The position numbers were made by a program, and so were the translations under genes. From a virus, in the IMG/VR virus record IMGVR_UViG_3300009507_000177, positions 1 through 20,087 of that record: a DNA stretch of 20,087 nt; one strand, 5' to 3'. Positions 445 through 13,941 of this stretch are shown here, piece by piece (within the stretch, counting starts at the first letter, position 1; each line of letters opens with the position of its first letter). Below the pieces are notes generated by a model. That model saw nothing but the letters and a program-made list of their open reading frames with translations. It ran no database searches and was not told the DNA's origin.

Positions 445-584
445 CTCAGGACTACTCAGGTGGCTCTCAGGCAGCGTCTCAGGACTACTTAGGTAGTACT
501 TAGGTGGTACTTAGGTGGTACTTAGGTAGTACTTAAGTAGTACTTAGGTAGTACTTAGGTAGTACTTAGGTAGTACTTATGGGG
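445..584. repeat. Tandem array of 11-bp units, TACTTAGGTAG
   Basis: From 486 to 573 there are eight contiguous 11-bp units, five identical to TACTTAGGTAG and three with one change each (497, 508 and 530). A ninth, diverged unit (TACTTATGGGG) ends at 584. To the left, four CTCAGG cores at 445, 455, 466 and 478 continue the series with spacings of 10, 11 and 12 bp, so 13 CTYAGG-type cores recur at about one per helical turn. Units contain stop codons and shift frame, so the array is not coding. On the opposite strand the core reads CCTAAGT, close to the CCTAAAG repeats that flank T7 terminal redundancies. Function unknown. Confidence 0.92.
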
Positions 585-634
585 TAAGCCCCGATTTGTA
601 CTGCAAAGAAATAGCCTCGTCCCATCAATTGTCA

Positions 635-652
635 GACCGCCGATCGTCGGTC
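635..652. promoter_or_regulatory. Near-perfect 18-bp dyad, candidate operator
   Basis: GACCGCCGATCGTCGGTC equals its own reverse complement at 16 of 18 positions. It lies directly after TTGTCA (629-634), a 5-of-6 match to a -35 box. TAAAAT at 656-661 is a possible -10 box, but the spacer would be 21 bp, longer than normal. The arrangement suggests an operator in a promoter spacer, or a GACCG/CGGTC RNA hairpin. Confidence 0.35.
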
Positions 653-664
653 ATCTAAAATGTC

Positions 665-683
665 AACGGATACAACATCCGTT
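665..683 (+). other. Short hairpin, 7-bp perfect stem
   Basis: AACGGAT (665-671) pairs exactly with ATCCGTT (677-683) around the 5-nt loop ACAAC. No T-run follows, so it is not an intrinsic terminator. It lies between the dyad at 635 and the terminator at 740, and could be a 3' stabilising or protein-binding hairpin of the same transcript. Confidence 0.5.
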
Positions 684-739
684 ACCCTTCACCCCTAATG
701 ATATCAATAGCTTAGCTCTCTTAAGGTTCCATATCGCCC

Positions 740-765
740 AAAAGAGGCCCCCGTGGGTCTTTTAT
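740..765 (+). terminator. Rho-independent terminator, possibly bidirectional
   Basis: The stem GGCCC/GGGTC (746-750/755-759, one G-U pair) closes a CCGT loop and is extended outward by A-rich sequence pairing with the following T-run TTTT (760-763). A stem followed by a U-tract is the classic intrinsic terminator. The A-run before the stem gives a U-tract on the other strand as well. On the + strand it would end transcription from the upstream gene and from any promoter in the intergenic region, about 100 bp before the first virion gene. Confidence 0.7.
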
Positions 766-862
766 TAGGTCGATTTGAAAAGGCCGCTAAAGGGTTTGTC
801 GTTGTTGTTGTTGTTAGACCTCTTTCGTGAGAGCCCAAGATTTCCCATATGGAGCACTTATC

Positions 863-1513
863 ATGGCACTAGAGACCGCCACCATTATCTCAGACCTCAA
901 CAGTTCGAACCCCACGTCCACTGATGGCCTCGCCCAGGCAGACGACCACATTCGACTGCTTAAGGCAGTACTGCAGAGCACGTTCCCTAACATCAATGCA
1001 GCCATGACCGCTACTGATGAAGTACTCAACGGCCTTGACGCTCGCGTCACCACCTTAGAGGGCGACAGTTCACTACCGGCACCCTCAGGCACCAAGATGC
1101 TGTTTCGCAACCCCACAGCCCCTACAGGCTGGGTCCAAGACACATCAGACAACAATAAGGCTCTTCGGGTAACCAATGCAGGAACGCTGAGCTCCGGCGG
1201 CTCCCAGTCGTTTACGACAGCCTTCGCCTCCTCACGCTCCATCACCGGATCCATGAGTGGTACTGTTGCAGGTCATACGCTGACCATCGCGCAGATACCC
1301 CCTCACACCCACTCGATTACCCTGCGTGACCCATCAGAAACCAATGTTGCGTACAACGCCGCTTCGTCTGACGATGTTGTAGTTGGCACTGACGACACAG
1401 GATCTCGCGGTGGCGGTCAATCGCACACTCACGGCTTCTCAGGAAGCATGAGCGTCAACCCGATTGATATGGATGTGCAGTACATCGATGTCATTGTGGC
1501 GACTAAGAGCTGA
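863..1513 (+). CDS. Tail collar-type / tail-tip protein
   Basis: This 216-aa protein looks like a short tail fibre or tail-tip protein. Residues 1-60 carry a pattern common in such proteins (SDLNSSNPTSTDGLAQADDH), apparently a trimer-forming segment. The middle contains PTGWVQ and a Gly/Ser-rich beta region, as in phage tail collar domains. Two His-Thr-His motifs at residues 148-150 and 188-190 resemble the metal-binding HxH sites that hold the trimeric tips of T4 gp12-like fibres together. The C-terminus (MDVQYIDVIVATKS) is typical of the family. I chose ATG 863 because GGAG at 851-854 is 8 nt upstream; a GTG at 827 has no comparable site. Its likely role is receptor contact or closing the tail tip. 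A true fibre also begins at 19627, so this may be a second, smaller adsorption protein. Confidence 0.7.
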   Translation: MALETATIISDLNSSNPTSTDGLAQADDHIRLLKAVLQSTFPNINAAMTATDEVLNGLDARVTTLEGDSSLPAPSGTKMLFRNPTAPTGWVQDTSDNNKALRVTNAGTLSSGGSQSFTTAFASSRSITGSMSGTVAGHTLTIAQIPPHTHSITLRDPSETNVAYNAASSDDVVVGTDDTGSRGGGQSHTHGFSGSMSVNPIDMDVQYIDVIVATKS

Positions 1514-6545: not shown

Positions 6546-9500
6546 ATGGCAATCTATGAGATCAATGGTGCTCGTTATGAAATTGACGATACCAATCTAA
6601 ACCAACAACAGCTCGAAGCTGCTGTCGAAGAGATCGCAGCCCAACCCCGTGACAGTGCTTTTGACTATGGTACGGATATGGCCCAGATGGTGGGATATAA
6701 AGGTTTTGAAGTTTCAGGCAAGAAACTGCAAGACTTCGGCCTCGACACTGTAGGATCCGCGTTGCAGGGCTTTGGAGCTCGTGGAGTAGCTCAGCAGGAG
6801 GAAGACATCGCTCGCGGAGGTTTCCAAGAGCAGTACACAGGATCGTTCTTTGAACAAGATAGTATTGGCGATGCCGCCGGATGGATCTTTGAAGGTATGC
6901 AGAAGAATGCACCTCAAATGGGTTTCGCCTTGGCAGGTACCGCCGCCGCTGCCGTAGCTGGGCTTGTTAGCGCACCGGCAGCGTTGCTTTTGGGGGGCAC
7001 AACCTACGCTGGTTCCTTCTTAATGGGGACGGGTGAAAGCGCGTTTGAACAAGAAGAAAAGACAGGAAACTACGACAGCTCTGTTGCCCTGGGCACAGGT
7101 GCCTTGATTGGTTTCTTAGATCGGTTAGGTGCCGGTCGCGTGTTTAGCCCTAGCGAGCTGGGCAAGATGTCAGTCAAAGAGCTTTACGAAAAGCTAGCCA
7201 AGAAAGGCTACACCGAGGCAGCTCAAGAAGTTGCAAAAGAGATCGGCAAGAAGGCCGTAGCTGAGGGCGTAACCGAAGCAACACAAGAAGCTGCAATCAT
7301 AGGCTCTGCTGCCACCCAGGGCGGTCAGTATACAGCAGGTGAAGTAGGCAACCGCCTAGTCGATGCCGCTGTGCTGGGTACCGGCTTCGGTGGAACTGCC
7401 GCAACAGCTCAGACGACTGTGCAAGGTGCTGCTCAGGCTGCTGGCTTTGCCAAGTCTTCTACACAGCGTCAAGCTGATACACTTTCTAACGCCGCAGCGA
7501 CTATGCTTGAGCGCGGTATGGATACCGACGATCAGGCGATGATTGATAAGGCTAACGAAGCTGGCTTTGCAATTGAGTCAGCCAAGAATGGTGATTTAGC
7601 TCCGCTGAAGAAGCTTGCTGTAGAAGAACAAGAAAACAACGACCCGTCCGAATTAGCTAAAGCAAGCTTTGCTCAGCGTCTGCAGGGCATCATTGATGAC
7701 GAGTCAGCAAGTGACCAGCCGTTTGATGTCGAGAACATTGATGTAAATGATGCTCAAAGTGCTCGCGGTATTGTGGACGCGGCGCACGGATCGATTAAGG
7801 AAGGCATTAACAACTTAAAAGCAATCCTGAAAGAAGGTGGCACTCTGGGTGATGGCACTTCGTATGCTGGCCTGAACCCTCAAAACGCTAAGACCTTTGA
7901 CGAGCTGATGCAGCGCGTCGAGGCGATGGTTGGCGTTAATATGGCAAAGAATAAAGTCAAGAAGACCATTACTGAGAAGCAGGTCGGAAAGATCAAAGAG
8001 CTTGTCGGAGACACCCAAGAGGGTCAGCAGCTCGTTAACCTAATTCGCGAAAGCGTTGTCCTGACCGACTTACACAATCAGGGTTACCAAGGCGGTCTTA
8101 GTAAAATCACAGACAAGCTAAACCCATTTGCCCCAACCGGCTCCTACAACACTTCAGCACTCGTTCAAGCTTCAGTCCGTGCGGGTGTAACAGGTGCCGC
8201 TGCAGCAGGTACAGGCGGCATGAGTTTGGCAATCCAGCTTCCTATCGTCGGTTTCGGTCGTTTGTATGATGCCCTAGGTGGTGACCGCAGCACTGTGTCA
8301 TCGTTTATCCGCGACAACAAAGATGGCGATGCTCTACCGGAACCAACGCCTCCTAGTATTGTTGCAGACCAAGCCGCAGCCCAGCAGCGCGATCAGGAAT
8401 TAGCTGCGCTCTTTCAGCCAGTCCTCGACGAACAATCAGAAACGTCAGGCGGCGGCGAGGCGGCTGCTATATCTACGGCAAGTCAGAACCTGGGCGGTTA
8501 CCCAGTAACTAGAGAACACTTTCAGCAAGCAATCGACAACCTGATGAAAAGGTTTCCTCAGGGTCGAAAAGATCTTCAGGCTGTTAAGGATAGAAAGGCT
8601 GGGGATTTTATTCCTAAGCCAATTCAATTTGCAATTACCCAGCAGATACAGGAAGACCTGCGTCCTTTGGTAACCGAAGCCTTTAAGCTGCAACAAGAAG
8701 CCAACAGGGCAACTGTTGATGCACAGCGTGACAAGCGCATCGAGCAAGGCAAAGCCGACAACCGCGCAGCAGTGCAAAATCTCCTCGATCAGCTCAACGC
8801 TGACAACGTGATTAACAAAGGCCACAAGGCGCAGCTCCAAAGTGCTTTGTCAGGTACCTTCCTGCGTGACCTCGGTCGCAACCCAATGGCGACTGTCGAG
8901 AACACCATCAAGGATCTGCAGGACAATGGTGTACCGCAAGAAGCGATCGACACCTACATCATGCCCTACGTCCAGCGCGTTGCACGTCAGCAGGACTCAC
9001 GCCCTCAAGAGTTTACTGAGGAAAGCAGTGTTTTAGATCCTTTGGATTTAGGTGATGAGATCGATGCAACAATCCTAGACATTTACCCAGACGACGATAA
9101 CGCCCAGGCACCTTATAAAGCCAAGAGCCTAAGAGACGCAGCGGAGTGGTTGTTCGATAACCTGTATGTACCGCATTATGGTACACGAGAGCCTCTCGCA
9201 TACACGCCGGAGAACAAAGAGAAGATTGCGCGTAAGATGGCTGCAGAAGCCATGCGAGCTCTTGAGTCGGATAACAACGCTATCGGCTGGTATGACCGCA
9301 CCCTGCGCCGCGCTAAAGCAGTTCTCGGTTTGATTGAGCCGCTGGCTGTGCAAAGCAACAACCCTGACACGCTAACAGCATTCAATGTTGCACTGGCTGC
9401 CACTTCTAACGGCACAGCAGTTACAGACAACTTTGAGTACGCTGTTGAAGCGTTCCGCTTTTACAAAGAGAACGACAGGTTCCCTGTAAGAGAGTGGAAC

Positions 9501-11699
9501 AAGGGCGGTGAGCGGCGTAAAGCAATGCGCGATGCCTTCGCTTTCTTTAACGCTTATCAGAAAGCTCGAGACACGGGTAAGTTTGATACACCGATCGGTG
9601 AGTTCCTGTCGAAACAGTTTACTGTTAAAGAGCTTGAGACCTTCATCGCGGCCTTCAACGATCGTCACAATACAGACATCAAGGTGCCTAGCTCAGAAGG
9701 CAAGAGCGTCTTAGTTAACGGAAGTTACATCATGGGCCCGAAGATCGGCCAAGGTTTCTATCAGAACCTAACAGGCAACTTTGATCCGCTGACGACAGAC
9801 ATATGGTGGATGCGTATGTGGAACCGCATGGTCGGTCGCCCATTTGCTACACCAATGACTGATGCGAAGATGCAGGAAAACAGAGATAAGATTGCCTCTG
9901 AAATGAAAGCTGCAAAAGGCGATAACAAGCAGGTCATCAATGAAGCTCTCAAGGCAACAGGCGAGACCCGTAAAGGTTTGTACACAGACCCTGAGCGTTT
10001 CGACGCATTTATCGGAGCTTTGGATAAAGCTTGGCAGCGTTACTATAAACAGTACCAGAAAGAGAACGGGAAGAACCCTGAGAAGCCTCAACTGTTTAAG
10101 TCAACAGGTACTCACGTTAAGAACATGGGGCCACAGCTCCAAGAACAGCCCAAGAATACCAGCGAGCGTGTATTTATCCGAGACACTGTAAATCGGGTTA
10201 AAGAATTACTATCTCAACAAGGTATCGACATCGAGACCGCTGACTTCCAAGCCCTGATGTGGTATCCAGAGAAACGCCTGTTTAGATCGTTAGGTGTTAA
10301 GGGCGGTCGTGGTGAAGATAATGACTACCTAGATGCAGCTCGTATCTTGGCAGAGAAAGAAGGTATTTCGAATGACAAAATCGAAGAAGCACTCGCCGCA
10401 ACAGACCGAGGACCGGACGGAAACGATCTTGGGCCAGGTACCGGAGGGCAACCTGGAGGACCTAATAGTGGGCCTGGTAGACTTAGCCAATTCACGGACA
10501 GCTCCCAGCAGTCCGAGCTCCCAGGAATCCTCACCGAGCCGCAGGGAAGTACCCAACCCGCCGAGCCTGTTCAAGAAGCAGTAGTACCTACTACTCGCCA
10601 AATAGCAGCTCAAGAAGACAACGCTAAGCCTCTCTTTGAAGTAGGAAAACGCGGCGGTGAGTTCCAGAACGGTATTAACAAAATCGAAGACCTACAGCGT
10701 TTAGCTAAGGCTCTTGGTATTGTCGTTAAGACCTTCCAGTCTATGGCGGCGATGAACCGTGATCGTGGGTCTAACGGCAAGTCTGGTAGAACGACTATGG
10801 GCGTAGCTACGATTGCACATCGCGGCGCACAACCTCCTAAAATCTCCATTATGGAGCCAGGATTTCCACGGCGGGGCAAAAACAACAATTACCCCGTACA
10901 AACTAAAGAAGACTTTATTACAACATTTGCTCATGAAATTGCCCATATACTAGAGGCACTGAACATGAGCACGGCAACACCGGAGGCGGCTCTACAGTTT
11001 TACGAGCCAAATGCACGAAGAAGTCCAATTGCGACTGACCAGTATTGGGTCAATAGCGGCTCGTTCCGCGAGGCTCTTCTCGATCTAGTTCGCTATGCTC
11101 ACGGAGAGGGTGACAAGTATGGTTTGCCGGAGGGATGGACACAAGAGGACGCTAAGCTCGTCGAAGAAGAAATAAAGTTTCTTCAAGACTACGCTATGGT
11201 CAATGTTGACATAGGCGATGGCAGAAGTGTTACCTCCTTTGTTCGCGGCCCATACGGTGCCGACCCCGAGGCCTTTGTAGAGGCTTCTTTGGAGAAGTAC
11301 CGTGAGGCTAGGAAACAGTTTATTAAAGACGGTATTGATCCCAACAGGATAGTCAGTGAAGCTGAGTATGCTTCCGAGGCGCGTCGAAGAGCAACGCAAG
11401 CTCGAGACAGTTACATCCGTAACCCAGCCGAGTTTGCTGTAGATCCGATCTGGACGTACATAGTCGATCCTGCTTTTGCACGAGACACTATGCCTAAGAC
11501 GACTGAGTTCATCCGTAAGCTCTTAAACAATAGCGGCTTTAGTAGGAACACAATCAAGTTCTATTCATCGCCTATGGCAACAATAATGGCTGTCGCTTTG
11601 GCAGTACTCGCAGCCAATGGCGGCGAAGAACCAGAAGAGCAGCCTATCCCACCAGGCGCGTTGTCGCCTCAAGGGCAGGGGGCTCTCTCAATCATCTAA
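6546..11699 (+). CDS. Giant internal virion protein with C-terminal zincin motif
   Basis: At 1717 aa this is by far the largest product, and the likely counterpart of T7 gp16, the ejected channel protein. The N-terminus (MAIYEINGARYEIDD) is a short opening motif I recall from large phage virion proteins. Residues 125-163 are hydrophobic (GFALAGTAAAAVAGLVSAPA and on), followed by Glu-rich helices with EGVTEATQEAA, another pattern from such proteins. Around 1063-1100 lies a distinctive conserved block (GPKIGQGFYQNLTGNFDPL, then WWMRMWNRMVGRP). A Pro/Gly/Ser linker spans about 1287-1352. Residues 1463-1467 are HEIAH, a zinc-metallopeptidase motif, with a possible third ligand near Glu1509. A hydrophobic segment (1677-1692) ends the protein. 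No lytic transglycosylase motif like that of T7 gp16 was seen. Start: GAGGTG upstream of ATG 6546. The enzyme call rests on the motif alone. Confidence 0.7.
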   Translation: MAIYEINGARYEIDDTNLNQQQLEAAVEEIAAQPRDSAFDYGTDMAQMVGYKGFEVSGKKLQDFGLDTVGSALQGFGARGVAQQEEDIARGGFQEQYTGSFFEQDSIGDAAGWIFEGMQKNAPQMGFALAGTAAAAVAGLVSAPAALLLGGTTYAGSFLMGTGESAFEQEEKTGNYDSSVALGTGALIGFLDRLGAGRVFSPSELGKMSVKELYEKLAKKGYTEAAQEVAKEIGKKAVAEGVTEATQEAAIIGSAATQGGQYTAGEVGNRLVDAAVLGTGFGGTAATAQTTVQGAAQAAGFAKSSTQRQADTLSNAAATMLERGMDTDDQAMIDKANEAGFAIESAKNGDLAPLKKLAVEEQENNDPSELAKASFAQRLQGIIDDESASDQPFDVENIDVNDAQSARGIVDAAHGSIKEGINNLKAILKEGGTLGDGTSYAGLNPQNAKTFDELMQRVEAMVGVNMAKNKVKKTITEKQVGKIKELVGDTQEGQQLVNLIRESVVLTDLHNQGYQGGLSKITDKLNPFAPTGSYNTSALVQASVRAGVTGAAAAGTGGMSLAIQLPIVGFGRLYDALGGDRSTVSSFIRDNKDGDALPEPTPPSIVADQAAAQQRDQELAALFQPVLDEQSETSGGGEAAAISTASQNLGGYPVTREHFQQAIDNLMKRFPQGRKDLQAVKDRKAGDFIPKPIQFAITQQIQEDLRPLVTEAFKLQQEANRATVDAQRDKRIEQGKADNRAAVQNLLDQLNADNVINKGHKAQLQSALSGTFLRDLGRNPMATVENTIKDLQDNGVPQEAIDTYIMPYVQRVARQQDSRPQEFTEESSVLDPLDLGDEIDATILDIYPDDDNAQAPYKAKSLRDAAEWLFDNLYVPHYGTREPLAYTPENKEKIARKMAAEAMRALESDNNAIGWYDRTLRRAKAVLGLIEPLAVQSNNPDTLTAFNVALAATSNGTAVTDNFEYAVEAFRFYKENDRFPVREWNKGGERRKAMRDAFAFFNAYQKARDTGKFDTPIGEFLSKQFTVKELETFIAAFNDRHNTDIKVPSSEGKSVLVNGSYIMGPKIGQGFYQNLTGNFDPLTTDIWWMRMWNRMVGRPFATPMTDAKMQENRDKIASEMKAAKGDNKQVINEALKATGETRKGLYTDPERFDAFIGALDKAWQRYYKQYQKENGKNPEKPQLFKSTGTHVKNMGPQLQEQPKNTSERVFIRDTVNRVKELLSQQGIDIETADFQALMWYPEKRLFRSLGVKGGRGEDNDYLDAARILAEKEGISNDKIEEALAATDRGPDGNDLGPGTGGQPGGPNSGPGRLSQFTDSSQQSELPGILTEPQGSTQPAEPVQEAVVPTTRQIAAQEDNAKPLFEVGKRGGEFQNGINKIEDLQRLAKALGIVVKTFQSMAAMNRDRGSNGKSGRTTMGVATIAHRGAQPPKISIMEPGFPRRGKNNNYPVQTKEDFITTFAHEIAHILEALNMSTATPEAALQFYEPNARRSPIATDQYWVNSGSFREALLDLVRYAHGEGDKYGLPEGWTQEDAKLVEEEIKFLQDYAMVNVDIGDGRSVTSFVRGPYGADPEAFVEASLEKYREARKQFIKDGIDPNRIVSEAEYASEARRRATQARDSYIRNPAEFAVDPIWTYIVDPAFARDTMPKTTEFIRKLLNNSGFSRNTIKFYSSPMATIMAVALAVLAANGGEEPEEQPIPPGALSPQGQGALSII

Positions 11700-11715: not shown

Positions 11716-11931
11716 ATGTCTAAAAAGGTTTTAGCTGTGCTGGCTGCTGGCTTAATGCTGTCTGCTTGCACTCATATTATCCCTAAAGAATGGCAAGCTC
11801 CTACTGTTGAAGAAAGAGGGCTGCAGTGGGCTAAAAGGCTTTGTACGCAATTTGGTCATACGCCTGGTCAGGTGCTTACTCAATGCATCGAGGATAGATA
11901 CGACCAGTATCTACTTGATCACCAACGATGA
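11716..11931 (+). CDS. Small phage lipoprotein, possible spanin or exclusion protein
   Basis: A 71-aa protein from ATG 11716 with AAAGGAA upstream; a longer in-frame start at 11617 lies inside the preceding gene and would bury the signal peptide. Residues 1-18 are a lipoprotein signal: KK, a hydrophobic core VLAVLAAGLML, and lipobox LSAC with Cys18 as the lipidated residue. Residue +2 is Thr, not Asp, so outer-membrane location is expected in a Gram-negative host. The 54-aa mature part has two more cysteines (43 and 57) that could form a disulfide, and ends charged without a second membrane segment. It precedes TerS, close to where T7 keeps holin and Rz/Rz1 genes, so an outer-membrane spanin is possible, but no inner-membrane partner is visible. 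A superinfection-exclusion lipoprotein like T5 Llp is the other option. The stop overlaps the next start (ATGA). Confidence 0.75.
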   Translation: MSKKVLAVLAAGLMLSACTHIIPKEWQAPTVEERGLQWAKRLCTQFGHTPGQVLTQCIEDRYDQYLLDHQR

Positions 11932-12413
11932 GTAAAAAGAAATACCCTCAGCGAGCTCCGAAACGTAACTACTTTGCCGAGTTAAGTAAGACCGCTGAGG
12001 GCCGCGCTAAACGTGCGGAGTGGGCTAAACAGCCACGCAAGAACCCTGGTAGACCGGCCGGTGTCCCTCATGGTTACACCAAAGAGACCATTGAGCCGAT
12101 CCGAGCAAAAGCCAAACAAGAAGCAGAAAGGTTTGTACAGATCATGTCAGACAACGGCGAAGCCCCAGAAGATGATTTCGCTAAAGAAGCCCTCAAGACA
12201 GCAGTCGAGGTAATGCGCGTTCCTGGTGAAACCAGGGAGCGTCTTGCGGCGGCTAGGCTTGTCTTGGACTTCACCAAGCAGAAACCAGCATCAAAGTCCG
12301 ATGTAACTATCGGCAAAGCAGAAGGCTTTTTAGAAGGCCTACTGGAACAGGAAGAAGAGAGCACCACAGATGGAACAAAAGCTGCAGCAGATACGGAAGA
12401 AGCTATACACTAA
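11928..12413 (+). CDS. terS: Terminase small subunit
   Basis: This 161-aa protein directly precedes and overlaps the large terminase gene, the normal place for TerS. It has a very basic N-terminus (about residues 1-55, rich in Lys and Arg, with NPGRPAGVPHGYT), as in small terminases where this part binds DNA. Residues 60-130 are helical (DDFAKEALKTAVEVMRVPG, then ERLAAARLVLDFTKQKPA), matching the helical, ring-forming core, and the C-terminus is acidic. It would recognise phage DNA and hand it to TerL. The start overlaps the lipoprotein stop by 4 bp, and the end overlaps TerL by 44 bp, suggesting coupled translation of all three. The call rests on position and composition; no single signature residue proves it. 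Confidence 0.75.
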   Translation: MSKKKYPQRAPKRNYFAELSKTAEGRAKRAEWAKQPRKNPGRPAGVPHGYTKETIEPIRAKAKQEAERFVQIMSDNGEAPEDDFAKEALKTAVEVMRVPGETRERLAAARLVLDFTKQKPASKSDVTIGKAEGFLEGLLEQEEESTTDGTKAAADTEEAIH

Positions 12414-13941
12414 CTTCCCCTACTACGCTAACGCAGCTCTAAAGATCCGTACTAAGCAAGGTGACATCACACCGCTTAAGCTCAACCAAGCACAGGAGAT
12501 ACTCGACAAAGCAGTTCAAGCTCAGCTCGATACTGAAGGTAAGATCCGAGTAATCATTCTGAAGGCCCGGCAGCAGGGTCTGTCCACCTACACTGGTGGC
12601 TACCTCTATTATTCAGTGTCGCAGCAGAAAGCGCGAAAAGCGATGGTTGTTACACACCACGCTGATAGCACTCGCGCTTTGTTCGATATGACCAAGAGGT
12701 TCCACGAGCATTGCCCTGAGATACTGAAACCCCACACTAAGTACTCAAGTAGACGAGAGCTGTCGTTCGATATACTTGACTCATCTTTCGTTGTTGCAAC
12801 GGCGGGTGGCGACAGTGTCGGTCGCGGCGAAACGCTTACACACTGCCATGCTAGTGAATTGGCATTCTGGCCTAAGTCTAATGCTGAAGAGGTTTGGAAC
12901 GGCTTGCTACAAGCGGTACCGAATGCTCCTGGTACTGCTGTTTTCGTTGAAAGCACTGCTAATGGTGTTAGTGGTATTTTCTATAATCTATGGCGAGGAG
13001 CTGTAGAGGGCAAGAATGGTTTCGTGCCGGTCTTCATACCTTGGTATGCGGATCCGACATATCGAGAGCCAGTGCCTGACAAGTTTGAGCGGACCCCCGA
13101 CGAAACTGATCTCGCCGATCTTTATGATCTGGATGACGAGCAGTTAATGTTTCGTCGCCGGAAAGTAGCTCAGAACGGGCTCGATCTGTTTAAGCAGGAA
13201 TACCCCAGCGAACCTGAGGAAGCTTTCCTGACAACAGGTAGGCCCGTGTTTAATCTTGAGAAGCTACAAGAGCAAATAAAGAAAACTCGAGATGTTGAAG
13301 AGCGTCTTGCTTTGGAAGGCGAAGACTTCGTCGAGCACATGCGAGGCGAGCTTACGACATATAGAAAGCACGACCCAGGCGAGCAGTACATTATCGGTGC
13401 TGACGTTGCCATGGGTGTTAGCCGGGGTGACTACTCAGTCGCCCAAGTCTTAGACAGTAAAAAGCGACAGGTCGCCACTTGGCGCGGCAGGGTTCACCCT
13501 GACTACTTTGCTGATGTACTGCGAGCACTCGGTTACTACTACAACGAGGCTAGGATTATCGTCGAGAATAATGGTCACGGCATCTTGACGTGTACACGAC
13601 TAGGTAAGGACTACGCTTACCCTAACTTCTACACGGAAGTGCAGGTCGATAAGATCACCGACAAAGAGACAATCAAGCTTGGCTTCTCAACCACCGCAAG
13701 AACCAAGCCACTTATTATTGACCAGCTTCGAGCTTCTCTAAGAGAAGGCGAGCTAGAGATAAACGACAAAACAACACTTAGAGAAATGCTTACTTACATC
13801 GTCACAGACAGTGGTTCGATGGAAGCGGAGCCAGGCTGCTTTGATGATTGTGTGATGTCAATGGCACTAGCCAATCACATACATGAAGGCGCTTGGGATC
13901 CAATCGATTCAACCGATGATTTTTACGAGGATATGGTCTAA
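12370..13941 (+). CDS. terL: Terminase large subunit, packaging ATPase and nuclease
   Basis: This 523-aa motor protein pumps DNA through the portal and cuts the concatemer. ATPase domain: residues 65-73 (KARQQGLST) are the variant Walker A of terminases, and HASELAFW around Glu163 is the Walker B with catalytic glutamate. The conserved WNGLLQAVPN and FVESTANG follow, the latter being the coupling motif. Nuclease domain: an RNase H fold with GADVAMG (Asp345), IIVENNGHG (Glu399) and CFDDCVMSMALAN (Asp492-Asp493), a plausible metal-binding acidic set. Length is normal for the family and no key residue appears missing. ATG 12370 follows a purine-rich stretch (GGAAGAAGAGAG) inside terS. The portal gene starts 2 bp after its stop. 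Confidence 0.95.
   Translation: MEQKLQQIRKKLYTNFPYYANAALKIRTKQGDITPLKLNQAQEILDKAVQAQLDTEGKIRVIILKARQQGLSTYTGGYLYYSVSQQKARKAMVVTHHADSTRALFDMTKRFHEHCPEILKPHTKYSSRRELSFDILDSSFVVATAGGDSVGRGETLTHCHASELAFWPKSNAEEVWNGLLQAVPNAPGTAVFVESTANGVSGIFYNLWRGAVEGKNGFVPVFIPWYADPTYREPVPDKFERTPDETDLADLYDLDDEQLMFRRRKVAQNGLDLFKQEYPSEPEEAFLTTGRPVFNLEKLQEQIKKTRDVEERLALEGEDFVEHMRGELTTYRKHDPGEQYIIGADVAMGVSRGDYSVAQVLDSKKRQVATWRGRVHPDYFADVLRALGYYYNEARIIVENNGHGILTCTRLGKDYAYPNFYTEVQVDKITDKETIKLGFSTTARTKPLIIDQLRASLREGELEINDKTTLREMLTYIVTDSGSMEAEPGCFDDCVMSMALANHIHEGAWDPIDSTDDFYEDMV

Follow-up and report, generated by a model that had tools for sequence, protein, structure and literature searches.

A marine, uncultured phage carries an array of short repeats that is probably a genome-end element of the kind found in T7 and SP6: that is, a short-repeat region at the concatemer junction, flanking a direct terminal repeat on its early side. 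We infer how this region is bound and how the DNA beside it is cut, and the array is likely a binding platform for the cutting and packaging of the genome. The phage is known from a viral record, IMG/VR record IMGVR_UViG_3300009507_000177, and "the window" is the whole stretch of 20,087 nucleotides that we analyzed. Its putative genome ends were placed from contigs and by comparison. A sequence-only reading of the window had suggested that the array could mark a genome end, a packaging or replication site, or a binding platform, and a genome end is supported by the match to the cut site of T7 and T3, a block that is present at both ends of a near-complete relative, breaks in other contigs, the genome ends of ICBM1, LUZ24, and SP6, and the terminase genes near similar arrays. 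Comparison supports the place of the array, a motif that recurs at a pitch of 9-12 bp, a neighboring T7-type cut or pause signal, and recurrence near genome ends or terminases.

The array in the window

The following features of the window are needed first:

1-171: C-terminus of a B12-dependent ribonucleotide reductase, with matches in Roseobacter phages
364-377 and 389-402, + strand: a pair of GACCAGGCATATGA copies, 25 bp apart, directly upstream of the array and conserved in close relatives
445..584, + strand: helically phased array of 13 CTYAGG-type cores, including 8.5 tandem TACTTAGGTAG units
863..1513, + strand: tail-collar-like protein that opens the late module (phrog_5795, E = 1e-19)
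11928..12413, + strand: candidate small terminase of 161 amino acids and candidate binder of the array; it overlaps the start of TerL and has a basic N-terminus with GRPxG
12370..13941, + strand: large terminase subunit, TerL (phrog_2, E = 4e-32), present in 20 of 21 related contigs

A search for CTTAGG with at most one mismatch identified the same 13 cores that the sequence-only reading had described, starting at 445, 455, 466, 478, 488, 499, 510, 521, 532, 543, 554, 565, and 576. The core-to-core spacing is 10, 11, 12, and 10 bp and then, from 488 on, 11 bp without exception. Two cores are imperfect (CTTAAG at 532 and CTTATG at 576). Tandem Repeats Finder agreed that 11-bp units run in tandem from 486 (486-579, period 11, 8.5 copies, 95% matches), and it did not find a second array with a comparable score anywhere in the window. 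As had been claimed, the array is intergenic: it is noncoding and lies between the end of the ribonucleotide reductase gene and the tail-collar-like gene. Nor did the array arise by chance. When we chained matches to the family motif (described below) at spacings of 9-13 bp, the longest chain in the window had 9 units, and the longest chain in 200 shuffles of the window had 4 units, which was reached once.

The 20-kb window also contains SU10-type portal and capsid genes. Among annotated phage records, none has 60% or higher identity to the terminase, capsid, portal, collar, or structural proteins of the window. A single open reading frame of 1,717 amino acids (6546-11699) lies within the structural module; it is possibly an internal virion protein.

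Arrays upstream of the first late gene in related phages

One relative (G001) is a 41,122-bp contig whose terminase is 97% identical to that of the window. It has a T7-type early module, with a single-subunit RNA polymerase, a gp4-like helicase-primase, a gp2.5-like single-stranded DNA-binding protein, a family A DNA polymerase, a 5'-3' exonuclease, and a ribonucleotide reductase, and these early genes point toward the array. In a relative of a different type (G004), the early module (about 14-16 kb) is flipped as a whole as compared to G001, so the array there lies at a divergent early/late junction. In both genomes, the array keeps company with the late module.

To compare relatives more broadly, we assembled a non-redundant set of 118 regions that precede the collar gene, of which 92 were long enough to use, and we tested each of these for periodicity at every lag from 4 to 40, with significance assessed against shuffles. 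A significant short-period array was found in 72 of the 92 regions, and the remaining 20 or so had no significant array by the shuffle test. The best lag was 10 in 30 regions, 11 in 9, 9 in 8, and 20-23 in 12. The sequence-only reading had proposed aligning the region across related phages, and this comparison puts the array of relatives at a shared location, flanked by the early genes on one side and by the first late (tail) gene on the other.

The sequence of the unit varies among relatives (ACTGAGGTAG, GACTTAGGTCT, AACTAAAGAG, ACTATAGACT, TGTCATTGGT, and others). Nevertheless, motif searches in 33 distinct arrays from six different seeds all led to one near-palindromic, degenerate motif, (g)ACTaagGt, which we also write as (g)ACTAAGGT; its C is conserved in 98% of sites and its G in 97%. 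Neighboring matches in these arrays were mostly 10 or 11 bp apart, but the 33 arrays had passed a filter on lag (about 9-12, 18-24, 30, or 33), and the fair test of pitch is therefore the set of unfiltered lags from the 92 regions. Chains of at least three motif units were present in 53 of 73 relatives and in 0 of 88 shuffled controls, as counted with a motif that was trained in part on these very arrays. In 47 of the 53 relatives with chains, the ACTNAGGT strand was equal or stronger. An exact search for two units (TACTTAGGTAGTACTTAGGTAG) over viral contigs gave no matches, because the units drift.

Copy number shifts quickly: the window has 13 cores, versus about 7 in a close relative (L084) with 98% identity in the structural protein. 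This rapid change, together with the recent origin of the exact copies, is what would be expected if the array were a neutral tandem repeat, without function, that formed by replication slippage. We consider slippage very improbable as the whole explanation, as distant relatives with differing units share one motif, one pitch, and one place, and even degenerate units stay in phase.

A cut-like signal and a probable terminal repeat

The array is followed by these features:

589..599, + strand: junction or cut-like block CCCCGATTTGT, the counterpart of TGTCCCT|ATCTGTT in T7 (the vertical bar marks the edge of a terminal repeat); it would put the left edge of the putative terminal repeat at about 592/593
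593..815: putative direct terminal repeat of about 223 bp, with an uncertain right edge (801-822), placed from the end repeat of G009 and from contig ends
665..683: inverted repeat AACGGAT-ACAAC-ATCCGTT, inside the putative terminal repeat; other paired sequences replace it in relatives
740..763: terminator-like inverted repeat AAAAGAGGCCCCCGTGGGTCTTTT, as read from the sequence; variably retained in relatives
774..794, + strand: conserved TTTGAAAA-n4-GCTAAAGGG; in relatives, it precedes the first late gene
801..815, + strand: (GTT)5 tract, just ahead of the first late gene, where contig ends of relatives pile up

In relatives, the block beside the array reads (TGT)CCC-n-AT[CT][CT]GT, and in many of them TGTCCC[GTA]AT[CT][CT]GTG. 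It matches the edge of the terminal repeat in both T7 and T3 (TGTCCCT|ATCTGTT), and the window's copy has diverged. Two relatives (L155 and L158) are identical to T7 over 13 consecutive bases (TGTCCCTATCTGTG in the relatives versus TGTCCCTATCTGTT in T7). Two other terminal-repeat edges, CTCCCC|ATCTGTTC in Syn5 and GGGCTA|TCTGTTC in SP6, match the block in part; the edges in cultured phages were read from records with identical ends. As an exact pattern, TCCCNAT[CT][CT]G is not unique within genomes; the window lacks it and has GCCCCGATTTGT instead. In T7, ATCTGTT is a class II terminator for the RNA polymerase at the concatemer junction (PMC11617373), and a complex of RNA polymerase and gp3.5 (lysozyme) that pauses at the junction has been described as initiating maturation with gp18 and gp19 (PMC3276506).

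Beyond this boundary lies a block of about 200-250 bp that terminates in (GTT)n. Across 23 relatives, its length is 170-268 bp, and mostly 198-253 bp. The near-complete relative (G009; 39,125 bp) starts at GATTTG and stops in (GTT)n, 243 bp beyond a second GATTTG. It thus bears the 243-bp block at both ends, in copies that differ at two positions; it has no clear array. Other contigs break at the edges of the block: one (L141) has its left end one base away from the GATTTG boundary, three early-side contigs (L493, L507, and L242) have right ends at or shortly past (GTT)n, and three late-side contigs (L089, L111, and L033) have left ends at (GTT)n. More broadly, the 640 bp that precede the collar gene contain the left ends of 26 contigs, as compared to 8.8 expected (a threefold excess; P = 2e-6). 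Because the block is present at both ends of G009 and contigs break at its edges, the segment from 593 to about 815 is probably the direct terminal repeat of the phage genome. Its length compares with known terminal repeats of 160 bp (T7), 174 bp (SP6), 184 bp (LUZ24), and 231 bp (T3). However, near-circular contigs besides G009 overlap by 90-361 bp at unrelated positions in the genome, so the overlap in G009 could reflect an assembly cut that landed here by chance, and one contig is not proof. Similarly, the breaks near the array may stem instead from repeats or from exchange of tail genes.

About 75-100 nt into the putative terminal repeat, a hairpin changes in sequence among the window and its relatives while its pairing is kept (arms AACGGAT/ATCCGTT, TGCTGA/TCAGCA, CAGCTGAT/ATCAGCTG, and GGGATA/TATCCC). 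The hairpin may serve at the genome end as a conserved inverted repeat.

The element at 774..794 is a candidate late promoter for the phage's single-subunit RNA polymerase. Among the genomes checked, the full motif occurs at this site only. Its CTAAAGGG core resembles T3-type promoters. A promoter scan with TTTCAAAAN{2,9}GCTAAAGG was discarded because it is too degenerate and its matches are mostly due to chance.

Comparison with known genome ends

T7 and T3 have short repeats (CCTAAAG) at the terminal redundancy, known as SRL and SRR, and we compared the window to the sequences in NC_001604 and NC_003298. In T7 and T3, repeats with a CCTAAAG/CTTTAGG core flank the terminal repeat on its early side, and the window's array would have this position relative to its putative terminal repeat; short direct repeats with a T7-type core (CCTAAAG / CTNNAG) are present in the window as its 13 cores. 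The order of elements is also equivalent: late genes, putative terminal repeat, junction signal, array, and early genes in the window, and late genes, SRR, terminal repeat, junction, SRL, and early genes in T7. The pitch is not the same: it is 13 bp in T7 (R = 0.90) and about 12 bp in T3, versus 11 bp in the window and mostly 10-11 bp in its family, so we rejected the T7 SRL as a match of equal pitch. Thus, of the likeness to T7 that the sequence-only reading had pointed out, the core stands and the pitch does not. T7 also has the late-side SRR, which the window lacks; its late genes head toward the end, whereas the window's head away from it; and the capsid and terminase modules of T7 and T3 are unlike the window's. 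A second array in the SRR position is missing at 816-862, exceeds the threshold in just 1 of 73 relatives (L032), and is degenerate in G005. The late side of the putative terminal repeat bears an SRR-like array of ACCCCAGTA / ACCTAGGAC, in inverted orientation, in L032, L033 (at 77-126), and G005 (about 36910-36980).

SP6 has ACTAAGGAAGCTACTAAGGAAGTGACTAAGGTAG immediately outside its 174-bp terminal repeat, with units of ACTAAGG (ACTAAGGNNG) at a 12-bp pitch. The motif and the orientation are as in the window, and so is the early-side location if the window's putative terminal repeat is correctly placed; the pitch differs, there are fewer units, and the boundary is a partial match (CTA|TCTGTTC). 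The one-turn period that had been read from the window holds there (11 bp) and for most of the family (10-11 bp), but not in SP6 or T7, and given the 13-bp pitch of T7, one-turn phasing belongs to the window's family rather than to the whole kind. Overall, the array is like those of T7 and SP6 in core and place and differs in pitch and, within the window, in having no late-side copy.

ICBM1 (Cobavirus) and LUZ24 have annotated terminal repeats (172-184 bp) at a divergent early/late junction, the layout that is also seen in G004. The ends of ICBM1 were mapped with PacBio reads, and its late genes are in the order tail/collar, terminase, portal, scaffold, and capsid, as in the window. Unlike the window, neither phage has a significant periodic array; ICBM1 has just two CTAGGT units, 13 bp apart. 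Because phiKMV, VpV262, Syn5, ICBM1, and LUZ24 all have terminal repeats but no significant array, the element is common but not universal. The array is also absent from the ends of CRP-7.

We also considered the pac sites of SPP1 and SF6, where direct repeats beside the packaging cut are bound by a ring-shaped small terminase (PMC4737164). A ring of helix-turn-helix domains could read evenly spaced sites, although the SF6 TerS domains show little sequence preference (PMC4737164). Those pac sites are for headful packaging, are at the terS gene, and have few box repeats. In the window, 11 kb separate the array from the candidate terS, and the end repeat of G009 suggests fixed ends, so the array does not fit an SPP1-type pac site. 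Sites for the T7 primase (GTC) were rejected as the meaning of the unit, as the window's unit contains neither GTC nor GAC.

Similar arrays near terminase genes

We scanned all viral contigs for the motif only, as three ACTNAGGT units in a 10-11-bp register. This identified 34 stretches, about half of which are from the window's family. In 6 of the roughly 10 other phage groups (L485, L488, L489, L497, L499, and L511), the array is about 1.2 kb or less from TerL. Three of these groups (L488, L489, and L497) have the array downstream of TerL, and two of the three (L489 and L497) have T7 gp19-like terminases, with the array in the SRR position. Separately, three ACCTNAGT units are present in each of 50 scattered bacterial and archaeal contigs (loci L515-L564), usually spaced by 11 bp, and one Bacteroidales genome (JAFWQP) accounts for several of these contigs.

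These arrays bear on two other explanations. The array might be a region upstream of the late operon that is bound by a regulator: it is always upstream of the first late gene in the window's family, and in three relatives (G004, G011, and G012), it lies between divergent early and late modules. We think that this is quite improbable, since the array is about 200-300 bp upstream of the sole promoter-like element, with the junction signal in between, and in the three groups with an array downstream of TerL, it is not upstream of late genes.

Alternatively, the array could be an iteron-type origin of replication, bound by a phage initiator, whose proximity to the late genes is a coincidence. Direct repeats of one turn, in noncoding DNA at the early/late junction, do look like iterons. 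This explanation is unlikely: the early module is T7-type (RNA polymerase, gp4-like and gp2.5-like proteins, and polymerase A), and T7-type replication initiates by transcription; no gene for a Rep-like or O-like initiator was found among the early proteins of G001 that we scanned; and the motif also occurs near terminase genes in other phages and beside the terminal repeat of SP6.

A packaging element at the genome end would be bound by a protein, and the best candidate for that binder is the 161-amino-acid protein whose gene overlaps the start of TerL. In other phages, small terminases are rings of DNA-binding domains (PMC4737164, PMC7672466). The 161-amino-acid protein has homologs that are 50-95% identical. 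It has no match in Pfam, PHROG, or among PDB folds, and its predicted model is mediocre (pLDDT of 72), so its assignment as a small terminase comes from gene position alone. Also, the motif is common to phages whose terminases belong to different families, which leaves room for another binder, such as a complex with the phage RNA polymerase.

Proposed mechanism and implications

We propose that several protein molecules would bind the repeats of the array along one face of the DNA. The binder may be the small terminase, or a complex of the phage RNA polymerase and the terminase that is paused at the junction. The bound proteins would position the terminase to cut at CCC|GATTT, and a genome with flanking repeats of about 223 bp (593 to about 815) would be excised from the concatemer and then packaged. 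The number of units evolves quickly, and the core and the pitch are retained.

A broader possibility, which we put forward tentatively, is that this is a packaging-initiation element built of repeats exactly one helical turn apart. Along a single face of the helix, these repeats would assemble either the small terminase or a paused complex of RNA polymerase and terminase; the number of units could be adjusted, and their sequence would drift. Such an element would be an ancestral feature shared by the genome ends of phages with T7-type replication, and the SRL and SRR of T7 would be off-pitch versions of it.

To our knowledge, what the T7 end repeats do is still unsettled, and our literature search did not find a paper on the function of SRL or SRR. 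Dozens of diverged arrays reveal what selection keeps, namely the CTNNAG core and a spacing of about one turn. Through such arrays, the genome ends of uncultured phages can be read from sequence, and assays of footprinting or packaging gain a clear substrate. Because the same repeat pattern is found at the genome ends or beside the packaging genes of both related and unrelated phages, the puzzle that the end repeats of T7 have posed for 40 years becomes testable.
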